Assembly: GCF_900166585.1 (NCBI RefSeq)
Contig: NZ_FVZC01000007.1
Span: 558,001-622,000, forward strand
Source of the DNA: Mesobacillus jeotgali
Lineage (GTDB): Bacteria; Bacillota; Bacilli; Bacillales; Cytobacillaceae
DNA: 64,000 bases
Direction of reading: 5' to 3'
Shown here piece after piece: positions 17,808 through 60,856 of this stretch. The position numbers were made by a program, and so were the translations under genes. Under the pieces are notes generated by a model that saw only the letters and a list, made by a program, of their open reading frames with translations, had not been told where the DNA came from and did not search any database. How positions within the stretch are numbered: the first letter of the stretch is position 1; every line of letters starts with the position of its first letter.

Positions 17808-17905
17808 ATTCTCACACCGCTTAATTCATTTGAAAATCCTTCATTGACGAGGTAACGGCCATATTGATATACTTCAGCTAATATCATTCATTTTAAAAAA
17901 TAACT

Positions 17906-18032
17906 CTTATCCAGAGCGGCGGAGGGACAGGCCCTGTGAAGCCCGGCAACCTTCTTTATTAGAAAGGTGCTAATTCCTGAAGGATAAGTGAGGCTGAGCA
18001 TTTGGAACCTCTCCTTATTTGGAGAGGTTTTT
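17906..18032 (+). promoter_or_regulatory. SAM-I (S-box) riboswitch with terminator
   Basis: The aptamer runs 17906-17988: P1 arms CTTATCC and GGATAAG, then the conserved AGAGCGGCGGAGGGA core, CCCTGTGAAGCCCGGCAACC, and AAAGGTGCTAATTCC. An intrinsic terminator follows (AACCTCTCC / GGAGAGGTT with T tract, 18006-18032). SAM binding should favour termination and switch off the downstream trans-sulfuration gene. Confidence 0.96.
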
Positions 18033-46468: not shown

Positions 46469-46581
46469 TCATGAACCCTCCTTTCCTGTCAAAAGTAGTT
46501 TTTCCTGATGGAACCTGAAATATAAAAAATGAACAGCATATGATTATATAGATACAAATTTTAAGAAAGGAGGGCGCTGTT

Positions 46582-47193
46582 ATGGATGAAAAACTTTATG
46601 CTGAAGATTTAGTGGAGTGCCCGACTGTTTTTTGTGCAAACCGAGACGATCAGGCTCCGTTATTTACGGCAGATGCCTTGATAAATGGGGATATCAAAAA
46701 GATTAATCTGGAGGATTATCGGGGAAAGTGGGTGATTTTATTTTTCTACCCAAGCAATTTCACTTTCGTTTGACCTACAGAACTGGCGGCGGTCGCCGCT
46801 ATTTACCCTTATATTAAGGCTCTGGGTGCAGATTTGATGTCGATTAGCACGGACAGTGTATACAGCCACAGGGTGTTTAAACAAACATCGCCTTCCTTGA
46901 AAAATGTGACGTACCCAATGGTCAGTGACAGAACACAGGTCATCAGCCGGGCATACAGGGTTCTTGATGCTGCAAGTGGTGCTTGCTTCAGGACATCCGT
47001 GTTCATCGATCCGGAAGGGATCATCAGGGTAAAGCTTACTTATCCTGGTAATGTTGGCCGAAATCTCCCCGAACATCTGAGAATCCTCCAGGCCCTTGAT
47101 TATGCAAAACAAACTGGTAAGAGTGTACCGGCAAACTGGGTACCCGGTCAGCCAGGTGTCAGTACGAATCCATCAAATATAGGGAATATTTAA
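46582..47193 (+). CDS. Peroxiredoxin with UGA (selenocysteine) at the peroxidatic position
   Basis: A 203-residue AhpC/Prx1-type peroxiredoxin if the TGA at 46771-46773 is read through. Before it: [22 protein letters not shown]; after it: [28 protein letters not shown] and on to the end in the same frame. In normal enzymes this place is FTFVCPTE, so the stop stands exactly at the catalytic Cys (residue 64). The rest keeps Thr-61-type, Glu and Arg active-site residues ([11 protein letters not shown]). The usual C-terminal resolving Cys motif (EVCPANW) reads KSVPANW, so it would be a 1-Cys/Sec type, as in PrxU of anaerobes. A SECIS-like hairpin follows the UGA directly. AAGAAAGGAGGG gives a strong start. 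A simple nonsense mutation is the alternative. Confidence 0.8.
46771..46804 (+). promoter_or_regulatory. Putative bacterial SECIS element
   Basis: Downstream of the UGA, GGCGGC and GCCGC pair (7 bp in all: 5 GC, one G-U, one U-A; 46784-46790 with 46795-46801) closing a four-base loop GGUC (46791-46794), 17 bases after the UGA. The E. coli fdhF SECIS has the same GGUC loop at nearly the same distance. Confidence 0.75.
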
Positions 47194-47200
47194 TTGCTGC

Positions 47201-47227
47201 AGGTCCTGATTACAGGGCCTATTTTTT
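47201..47227 (+). terminator. Terminator of the peroxiredoxin gene
   Basis: AGGTCCTG and CAGGGCCT pair (one G-U) across ATTA, then TTTTTTG. Confidence 0.75.
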
Positions 47228-47230
47228 GTC

Positions 47231-47246: not shown

Positions 47247-47370
47247 AAATCAAGAAAAAATGTCACAGAAAATCTACAAAAATCTTCGATATCACTCACA
47301 AAGTTTTTTTAAAATAGAATCAGGACTATGTTAATTGTTTCACAAACTAAAAATTTGGGAGGAACCAAAA

Positions 47371-48723
47371 ATGGATGAGGTCTTGATTTTAAGCCGGATC
47401 CAGTTTGCTGTAACTGTGTTTTATCATTTTTTGTTTGTTCCGTTGACGCTTGGATTGGTCATCCTTGTCGCCATCATGGAGACCAAGTATGCACGGACAC
47501 TAGACCAGACTTATAAAATGATGGCGGATTACTGGGGAAAGCTGTTTGCGATCAATTTTGTTCTTGGTGTCATCACTGGCATTACGATGGAGTTTCAATT
47601 TGGGACGAACTGGTCTGAGTATTCGAAGTATATGGGAGATATCTTTGGCTCGCCGCTTGCGATTGAAGCTCTGGCCGCTTTTTTTCTTGAATCCACCTTC
47701 ATGGGCATCTGGCTGTTCGGCAAGGATAAGTTCTCACCCAAGATGCGGGCAATTTCCATCTGGATGGTCGCCCTCGGGACCAATATTTCTGCTCTCTGGA
47801 TTATCACTGCAAATGGATTCATGCAAAATCCGGTAGGCTACGTCCTGAAGAATGGCCGTGTGGAGTTGAACAGCTTTTCAGAGCTCGTCACGAATCCATA
47901 TGCATGGTACATGTTCGTACATACTGTCATAAGTGCTTATATTGTCGGGGCTTTTTTCATGATGGCCATCAGCGCGTACCACTTGCTGCGCAAAAATGAA
48001 ACGGCTTTTTATAAAAAATCGTTTAAATATGGACTGGCTATGGCATTGTTCTCTGCCACTTTAACTCCATTCATCGGACACCAATCCGGGGTGTTTGCGG
48101 CAAAAATGCAGCCGGCAAAAGGTGCGGCAATGGAAGCAGTATGGGAGACACAGAAAGAGATGCCTTTTCATCTTATTCAGATACCCGATCAGGAAAATGA
48201 GCGCAATGCTTTTGAGGCAATCAGCATACCAAAGCTCGGAAGCTTCTTTTATACTAACTCCTTCAAAGGCGAAGTAACTGGCCTGAGGGATATACCCGCG
48301 GATGAACGGCCTAACGTGGAACTGGTATTTTATGCATTCAGGGTCATGGTTGCGCTTGGTGTCTTTTTTCTTGCTGTCTCATGGTATGGCCTTTATCTAT
48401 ATCGAAAAAATAAACTCGAGAACTCCCCAAGATATTTGAAGCTCGTCCTTTACTCTGTACTCCTCCCATACATTGCCATCAATGCAGGCTGGATGGTAGC
48501 AGAAGCGGGCAGACAGCCATGGGTTGTCTACGGGCTAATGAAGACTTCCGAAGGGGTATCTCCATTAGCTGTATCCCAGGTGGTTTTCTCGCTTGCAGCA
48601 CTTGTCATTTTCTATACTGTCCTGCTGATTGCGGATGTTTATTTGATCATTAAGTATGCGAAAAAAGGGCCGGAATCAGAGGTTAAATATGGTCTTGGAG
48701 GGGGCGTGAAGCATGTCTCATGA
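47371..48723 (+). CDS. cydA: Cytochrome bd quinol oxidase subunit I
   Basis: 450 residues from ATG 47371 (GGGAGGA eight bases upstream). Nine membrane helices; haem ligands are in place: the N-terminal His (SRIQFAVTVFYHFLFVPLTLG), the GRQPWVVYGLMKT quinol/haem region and a Met ligand helix. The Q-loop is the short Firmicute form. Bd oxidase reduces oxygen at very low levels and resists nitrosative and peroxide stress. The upstream Fnr box fits low-oxygen induction. It overlaps cydB by 11 bases. Confidence 0.95.
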   Translation: MDEVLILSRIQFAVTVFYHFLFVPLTLGLVILVAIMETKYARTLDQTYKMMADYWGKLFAINFVLGVITGITMEFQFGTNWSEYSKYMGDIFGSPLAIEALAAFFLESTFMGIWLFGKDKFSPKMRAISIWMVALGTNISALWIITANGFMQNPVGYVLKNGRVELNSFSELVTNPYAWYMFVHTVISAYIVGAFFMMAISAYHLLRKNETAFYKKSFKYGLAMALFSATLTPFIGHQSGVFAAKMQPAKGAAMEAVWETQKEMPFHLIQIPDQENERNAFEAISIPKLGSFFYTNSFKGEVTGLRDIPADERPNVELVFYAFRVMVALGVFFLAVSWYGLYLYRKNKLENSPRYLKLVLYSVLLPYIAINAGWMVAEAGRQPWVVYGLMKTSEGVSPLAVSQVVFSLAALVIFYTVLLIADVYLIIKYAKKGPESEVKYGLGGGVKHVS

Positions 48724-49741
48724 TACACTGGCGATTATTTGGTTCGGGCTCTGGGGCTTGATCTGGACGGTTTACTTTATCCTTGATGGATATGCGCTTG
48801 GAACAGGGATGCTATTCCCGTTCATTACAAAAAACCGGCAGGAACGAAATCAGCTGCAGGAAGCAGTCGGCCCGTTCTGGGGCGGGAACGAGGTATGGCT
48901 TATTACAGCGGGAGGAGCAACATTCGCAGCATTTCCGGCCGTCTATGCGGACATGTTCAGCTTTTTATACACGCCGTTATTTCTCGTATTGATTGCCCTG
49001 TTCATAAGGGCCATTGGTCTTGAATTCATGCATAAGGATGACAATCCAATCTGGCAGGCAGCGTGTAAATGGGCTTTTTTTGCGGGAAGCTTCCTGATCG
49101 CCTTCTTGTTTGGTGTGACATTCGCAAATCTGTACAGAGGCCTGTTGATTGGAGCCGATGGCTATGAGGGAAATCTGTTTAGCCTTCTCAATGGCTACGG
49201 AATTTTAGGAGGATTATTATTTGTCTCTTTATTCCTGCTATCCGGTTCATTATGGATTCAGATAAAGACTGCAGGACAAACGGCAGTAAGAGCCCATAGG
49301 CTTTCACGCTTTTTGGCAGGAGTGGCGCCTGCGATGCTGTCCCTATTCTTCCTGGCAACTGTGAACCGCACACCATTGCTCGATAACTACTCACATAATC
49401 CAATTCTCTGGATGGTACCTGCTCTGGCATTGACAGCCATGCTTTCCTCCGCGTACTTTATTTTTAAAAAGAAAATTGGCTATGCCTTTACTGCAGTATG
49501 TGTGACCATTTTCACCAAAATGGCATTCGGGTTCATTGGCATGTTCCCGAACATGCTGCCATCAAGAATAGACAGCGCCTATAGTGTCAGCCTATATGAC
49601 GCCGCAGGAAGCAAGCTGAACCTGACCATCATGTTCATCGTCGCGCTCATCTTCGTGCCAATCATCATTGCCTATCAAATATGGAGCTACACACTATTCA
49701 AGGACAAAATCCTAAAAGAAAGCGCAAAAGGATACCAATAA
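48713..49741 (+). CDS. cydB: Cytochrome bd quinol oxidase subunit II
   Basis: 342 residues, eight or nine membrane helices, with the family start LAIIWFGLWGLIWTVYFILDGYALGTGML and the GPFWGGNEVWLITAGGATFAAFP block. It stabilises CydA and the haem pair. Translational coupling with cydA is implied. The cydC and cydD exporter genes, usually next, are absent; a 1-kb repeat array follows instead. Confidence 0.95.
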   Translation: MSHDTLAIIWFGLWGLIWTVYFILDGYALGTGMLFPFITKNRQERNQLQEAVGPFWGGNEVWLITAGGATFAAFPAVYADMFSFLYTPLFLVLIALFIRAIGLEFMHKDDNPIWQAACKWAFFAGSFLIAFLFGVTFANLYRGLLIGADGYEGNLFSLLNGYGILGGLLFVSLFLLSGSLWIQIKTAGQTAVRAHRLSRFLAGVAPAMLSLFFLATVNRTPLLDNYSHNPILWMVPALALTAMLSSAYFIFKKKIGYAFTAVCVTIFTKMAFGFIGMFPNMLPSRIDSAYSVSLYDAAGSKLNLTIMFIVALIFVPIIIAYQIWSYTLFKDKILKESAKGYQ

Positions 49742-60524: not shown

Positions 60525-60746
60525 ATCCTAAAAAAGAGTTCAACAATAAGGGAGATAATATGACAAAAAACCTCCGCTGATTGGTTGGAATTTTCAGAAA
60601 AGTAAAGCGTGAGATTGTGATTTTGTAATTATTTGGAATATAAGCTAGGAAATCGATGTGATACAGCCGACAAATAATTACATGTTAAATATATAGAACA
60701 ATGTACAATGACTTTAGGAGTAAAAGATTAAGCAAAAAGATACAGA
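60525..60746. promoter_or_regulatory. Promoter region of the GEMM-sinI transcript
   Basis: The 220 bases hold no gene. A candidate -10 TACAAT lies at 60708. GCCGACAAA (60666-60674) is a seven-of-nine match to a reversed Spo0A box (TTTGTCGAA). Neither was confirmed. Confidence 0.35.
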
Positions 60747-60826
60747 TAAAGGCAAACTGATTGAAAAATCAGGACGCAAAGTCACGGATCTAAGGTACAA
60801 ACGTACTATGATGGCCGGGCCGCCTG
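60747..60826 (+). promoter_or_regulatory. Cyclic-di-GMP-I (GEMM) riboswitch
   Basis: The aptamer core is complete: AAAGGCAAACT, a tetraloop stem GATTGAAAAATC, AGGACGCAAAG, CACGG, CTAAGG, stem GGTAC/GTAC(T), and ATGATGGCCGGGCCGCC closing P1. It lies 31 bases upstream of the sinI start. No terminator intervenes, so control is probably at translation, by masking GGGGGG of the ribosome site, or through an unseen alternative fold. Confidence 0.92.
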
Positions 60827-60856
60827 GGATACTAACTGTATTTTGGGGGGAAGAAC

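Follow-up and report, generated by a model that had tools for sequence, protein, structure and literature searches.

We analyzed a 64-kb stretch of DNA (hereafter the window) from the genome of Mesobacillus jeotgali, an assembly of 4.63 Mb in 9 contigs. At 46582-47193, the window carries a gene that starts with ATG and is interrupted by a single in-frame TGA at 46771-46773, with the frame open on both sides. This TGA sits within FTFV*PTE, the position of the peroxidatic Cys in AhpC/Prx1 enzymes. The locus comprises the following elements:

46566-46573, plus strand: Shine-Dalgarno-like AAAGGAGG, 8 bases 5' of the ATG, read directly from the sequence
46582-47193, plus strand: predicted selenocysteine (Sec) peroxiredoxin gene, coding for 203 residues if the UGA is taken as Sec and ending in TAA
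46771-46773, plus strand: UGA codon 64, predicted peroxidatic Sec (PxxxTxxU), TGA in all orthologues examined
46784-46801, plus strand: putative SECIS stem-loop of 7 pairs with a GGUC loop, based on fold, conservation and synonymous-site constraint
47125-47127, plus strand: Val182 at the resolving-Cys position, Cys in 0/99 family orthologues
47201-47230, plus strand: possible intrinsic terminator, an 8-pair stem (47201-47220) and a T-rich tail

The frame, the TGA and the stem-loop observed in the window are confirmed to be real. A preliminary description of this DNA had placed the TGA exactly at the peroxidatic Cys codon of an intact frame, and this placement was borne out, as the TGA is codon 64 of a frame that stays open up to the TAA. 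The terminator scan yielded 1 match against 0.7 expected in shuffles, which is weak on its own. Directly downstream of the peroxiredoxin gene, two genes resembling cytochrome bd subunits by eye are located at 47335-49741 (plus strand). An Rfam search of the window at gathering scores returned two riboswitches only, namely a SAM riboswitch at 17904-17990 and a c-di-GMP-I riboswitch at 60741-60827, both on the plus strand.

With the UGA read as Sec, the predicted product contains the motif PSNFTFVU, which fits PxxxTxxU, the peroxidatic codon being a recoded stop, and it matches the Pfam family AhpC-TSA (PF00578) with 117.1 bits (cut-off 26). T61, U64 and R137 are invariant in 30/30 aligned orthologues. 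The structure predicted for the protein, modelled with C for U, reached a pLDDT of 89.9 and a pTM of 0.88. Its top Foldseek matches are Prx1/AhpC-type enzymes, including human Prx2, Schistosoma Prx1 and Salmonella AhpC, with TM-scores of 0.81-0.86 by query length.

Sec-decoding genes and distribution of the TGA-containing gene

The preliminary description had suggested searching the rest of the genome for selA, selB, selC and selD, and all four were found above cut-off. The scores were 560.3 bits for selA (cut-off 267.9), 363.6 bits for selB (cut-off 242.25), 399.2 bits for selD (cut-off 125) and 56.1 for tRNA-Sec (gathering score 47), the latter also being reported by ARAGORN as tRNA-SeC with the anticodon tca. 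In addition, four further genes of the host genome carry an in-frame TGA at known Sec sites. Two of them are formate dehydrogenase genes (L270, L271) of 702 codons (CNRTUHAPS) and 1013 codons (ARIUHSST), in which the TGA presumably marks the known Sec site of these enzymes. The other two are selD itself, with its TGA in KAGUGCKI, and a SelW-like gene between selA and selD (locus L238, G000:C9:1348909-1349124, minus strand), with its TGA in FCMQU (CxxU); Sec-site motifs of SelD and SelW are given in Table 1 of PMC9312934. In both formate dehydrogenase genes, GGUC follows 18 bases past the TGA and lies within the hairpin loop of a 47-base fold. In a 60-base fold, GGUC stays in the hairpin loop for the 1013-codon gene, and the 702-codon copy prefers another structure. 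The hairpins of SelD and SelW have a GUU loop, not GGUC.

Among 193 genomes of the host's family, 96 contain orthologues, 99 in number (E 3.1e-60 or better). The search extended to E 8.1e-35, with the TGA-containing matches ending at 3.1e-60 and the next match, at 2.3e-36, having no stop. All 99 orthologues carry TGA at the peroxidatic codon and no Cys form occurs among them; the preliminary description had proposed checking close relatives for Cys or TGA, with Cys in relatives together with a lack of selB/selC as the refuting outcome, and the opposite was found. In 6/99 sequences, TAA or TAG was counted besides the TGA, because the proteins at those loci end early and the match overran the gene's own stop. 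Within the genus of the host, 21/21 genomes carry the TGA peroxiredoxin, and three genomes of the family (G051, G094, G191) hold two copies each. TGA was likewise present in 80/80 named loci (best 80 of 126), which overlap with the 96 family genomes, and in all 28 loci fetched from the phylum by best score. Mesobacillus boroniphilus, M. selenatarsenatis and M. subterraneus are among the nearest named records; some of the closest bear other names.

Seen in the window alone, a stop in a conserved codon is also what a pseudogene or a sequencing error would display, with an ordinary Cys codon mutated to TGA. Such an origin has a negligible probability given the presence of TGA in every orthologue of 96 genomes and the 34 invariant columns that flank the TGA on both sides among 30 aligned orthologues.

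The preliminary description had further remarked on Sec being rare among aerobic Bacillaceae. This was not supported for the host's family, as selA was found above cut-off in 172/193 family genomes, a count made regardless of oxygen use. The peroxiredoxin gene was present in 96/172 genomes with selA above cut-off versus 0/21 without it (Fisher p 2.8e-7, with related genomes counted as independent). One genus of the family (g20; 13 genomes, G165-G177) showed 0/13 genomes with selA above cut-off and 0/13 with a TGA peroxiredoxin and looks like a lineage without Sec. A survey from 2006 gave 3 selenoproteins for Firmicutes/Bacillales (PMC1794560). Judged from the genomes sampled here, the spread of the Sec peroxiredoxin in the family is wider than the preliminary description had supposed, and our analysis places a predicted selenoenzyme together with the whole Sec pathway in 96/193 sampled genomes of one Bacillaceae-type family.

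Regarding the genomic context, a cytochrome bd-like gene was found downstream in only 13/80 named loci (the 80 best of 126; flanks of up to 4 kb, genes labelled by eye), and the most widespread neighbour, topoisomerase-like by eye, in 39/80 of the same loci. Conserved neighbours were considered as functional partners and rejected, these frequencies being read as local synteny. Upstream of the named loci, the best matches to a PerR box were no better than shuffled ones (one plain shuffle per locus).

The stem-loop downstream of the UGA

The stem pairs UGGCGGC (46784-46790) with GCCGCUA (46795-46801) and closes the loop GGUC at 46791-46794. The preliminary description had put the 7-bp stem that closes this loop 17 bases after the UGA; this distance applies to the loop, but not to the stem, which already starts 10 bases past the UGA. 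Bacterial SECIS elements have been modelled with a loop of 3-9 nt and an upper stem of 4-16 bp (PMC13188914, Fig. 2A legend), G at loop positions 1 and 2, a UGA-to-loop distance of 16-37 nt and a minimum free energy of at most -7.5 kcal/mol (PMC13188914). The element of the window lies within every one of these limits (loop 4, stem 7, GGUC, 17 nt, and -11.8 kcal/mol for the 24-nt stem-loop), and the 24-nt stem-loop reaches -7.5 kcal/mol or lower in 98/99 family orthologues.

As evidence from a single sequence, the stem is weak. The window copy folds with a z-score of -0.77, 38/200 shuffles being as stable, and any SECIS-like stem of at least 7 pairs is found behind 141/2718 TGA triplets in the 64-kb window. 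The exact arrangement of GGTC, 17 bases and 7 bp occurs behind 1/2718 window TGA triplets, that of the peroxiredoxin only. Used as a genome-wide pattern, the exact SECIS core gave 11 matches versus 26 for a reversed-pattern control and was discarded as uninformative.

What raises the stem above chance is its conservation: next to the invariant TGA, the loop is GGUC in 98/99 family orthologues, and third-base entropy is lowest at residues 69-73, inside the SECIS, when 24 conserved four-fold-degenerate sites are ranked (Thr66 follows with 1.00 vs 0.98). The single orthologue with another loop, AGUU, lies at L087 4373-4420 (minus strand). Covariation of the stem among relatives, which the preliminary description had suggested as a check, gave a divided answer. 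On the one hand, 99.0% of stem cells are paired in 85 distinct sequences and the covariation score is 0.279 versus 0.210 in shuffles, with 0/500 shuffles as high (kinship kept in). On the other hand, only 1/7 stem pairs shows a both-sided change (G-C 45, A-U 31 and G-U 9 of the 85 distinct sequences), a level equally attained by 412/500 shuffles; moreover, the stem is a palindrome, and sliding it by -3 columns leaves 93.8% of cells paired. The synonymous-site test on the coding sequence is the stronger evidence for selection on the SECIS, and as judged from these alignments the element is under selection.

These data also bear on how the UGA is decoded. A suppressor could read it as Cys, Trp or another residue rather than as Sec via SelB; UGA read-through can in principle occur without a SECIS, and Sec at codon 64 is itself a prediction. 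Such decoding is very improbable in light of the full Sec gene set, the four additional genes with TGA at known Sec sites, the lack of the gene in all 21 genomes without selA above cut-off, and the location of the most constrained synonymous sites at the expected SelB binding position. With Sec genes in the genome and TGA in every family orthologue, a Sec peroxiredoxin with a bacterial SECIS, as originally put forward, is the best reading. The gene at 46582-47193 is very probably a real selenoprotein gene whose product is a selenocysteine peroxiredoxin related to AhpC/Prx1, with Sec64 presumably inserted via SelB and the SECIS.

Resolving position and proposed catalysis

The resolving Cys had been noted as missing as well, which the family alignment corroborates. 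Its position is occupied by Val182 in VPANW, the corresponding motif of the host's own AhpC being CPAKW, and across the 99 family orthologues this column holds Val (84), Thr (7), Ile (4), Leu (2) or Ala (2) and in no case Cys.

The genes, the UGA codon, the stem-loop, the intact peroxiredoxin site and the missing resolving Cys can be read at the level of sequence, and on this basis we propose the following mechanism. Selenophosphate would be made by SelD, tRNA-Sec(UCA) would be charged with Sec by SelA, and SelB on the stem-loop at 46784-46801 would deliver the Sec-tRNA to the UGA at 46771. This would yield a peroxidase of 203 residues whose peroxidatic position is held by Sec64, next to Thr61 and Arg137, both conserved; lack of selenium would leave a fragment of 63 residues. 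The Sec64 selenolate would react with peroxide to a selenenic acid, and the selenenic acid would be reduced by an outside thiol, making the protein a one-Sec enzyme. Reduction from outside is proposed since the protein lacks the resolving Cys; thioredoxin, bacillithiol or another thiol of this sort are conceivable reductants. From the residues present, we infer that the peroxidase is of the one-Sec kind and relies on a thiol from outside for its recycling.

This one-Sec status is not certain, because Cys18 (74/99 family orthologues) and Cys13 (38/99) could serve as unusual resolving residues. In particular, Sec might be inserted as proposed and the N-terminal Cys18 act as its resolving partner. 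The occurrence of Cys18 in most orthologues favours this arrangement, but it is missing in 25/99, and no Cys besides the Sec site is kept in all of them; we regard it as unlikely, while giving it some weight. A further alternative is that the UGA mainly works as a selenium-dependent switch and that the protein senses peroxide instead of removing it in bulk. The host genome also encodes a typical 2-Cys AhpC (G000:C8:79100-79660) with an adjoining gene that is AhpF-like by eye, and thus has another enzyme for bulk peroxide removal. A sensor role is nevertheless improbable, as the invariance of T61, Sec64 and R137 is what would be expected for a working enzyme. For a predicted one-Sec peroxidase, the question of most interest is how an enzyme without a resolving Cys is recycled.

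Comparison with known peroxiredoxins

Sec peroxiredoxins with PxxxTxxU (PF00578) are a described kind of selenoprotein (PMC13188914; PMC9312934, Table 1), and a 2016 survey counted Prx selenoproteins in 78 organisms (PMC5029168). Among the matches listed in our search of open-access literature, titles and abstract openings named no Bacillaceae Sec peroxiredoxin, most subscription journals being outside its scope, and the same literature held little on Sec in the host's Bacillaceae-type family. One article lists Bacillus peroxiredoxins as selenium-related, the portion of its text considered here containing neither UGA, TGA nor stop codon (PMC11076775). Another terms peroxiredoxins not selenoproteins (PMC10298544), a statement that, as excerpted and set against the bacterial reviews, looks like a mammalian viewpoint. 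In NCBIfam, no model naming the window protein scored above its cut-off; consequently, automatic annotation may truncate the gene at the UGA or label it as defective.

A close point of reference is PrxU, reportedly the Sec peroxiredoxin of Eubacterium acidaminophilum described by Sohling in 2001 (cited in PMC13188914), for which we take NCBIfam NF040737 to be the model. The window protein resembles PrxU as an AhpC-TSA protein with PxxxTxxU, and those sequences of our tree that pass NF040737 also have no resolving Cys. It differs in scoring only 159.5 bits, below the NF040737 cut-off of 270, and in lying across a well-supported branch (100/98) of the tree, with the proteins of Bacilli and of some other Bacillota on one side and the NF040737-passing sequences on the opposite side. 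Among 10 further relatives, 4 exceeded the NF040737 cut-off (L214, L217, L223, L229) and 6 fell below it, two of the latter from the host's family. According to these scores, the window protein is within the Sec peroxiredoxin kind but outside the PrxU equivalog as curated.

The tree was built from 30/99 family orthologues, 28 phylum loci picked by score, 8/80 named loci and 19 hand-picked relatives (15 Cys and 4 TGA) and was rooted at the midpoint. The Cys sequences occupy one side of a branch with a support of only 50/34. In its alignment, a resolving Cys is present in 0/70 Sec sequences and 15/15 Cys sequences. We tentatively suggest, with clearly less than even confidence, that the Bacilli hold a separate Sec peroxiredoxin class that is always Sec, invariably lacks the C-terminal resolving Cys and turns over via an outside small thiol, e.g. 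bacillithiol, Sec and a resolving Cys being mutually exclusive in AhpC-type enzymes.

The stem-loop can be compared with the SECIS of E. coli fdhF, which has a GGUC apical loop 18 bases from the UGA. The loop is alike, whereas the stem sequence differs and the distance is 17 bases in the window. The Sec AhpC of Blastococcus saxobsidens likewise has its Sec encoded by a recoded stop that precedes a bacterial SECIS, but uses a UAG codon and a CUA anticodon (PMC5330540), in contrast to UGA and UCA for the Mesobacillus gene.

Finally, the window protein shares with typical AhpC (TIGR03137) the predicted fold and the FTFVxPTE motif. AhpC has Cys at both sites, whereas the window protein has predicted Sec and Val. 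It scored 151.2 bits against TIGR03137, below the cut-off of 272, with Val182 at the position where this family has its C-terminal resolving Cys. The natural contrast between Sec without a resolving Cys and Cys with one could offer a handle on what selenium buys a peroxidase.
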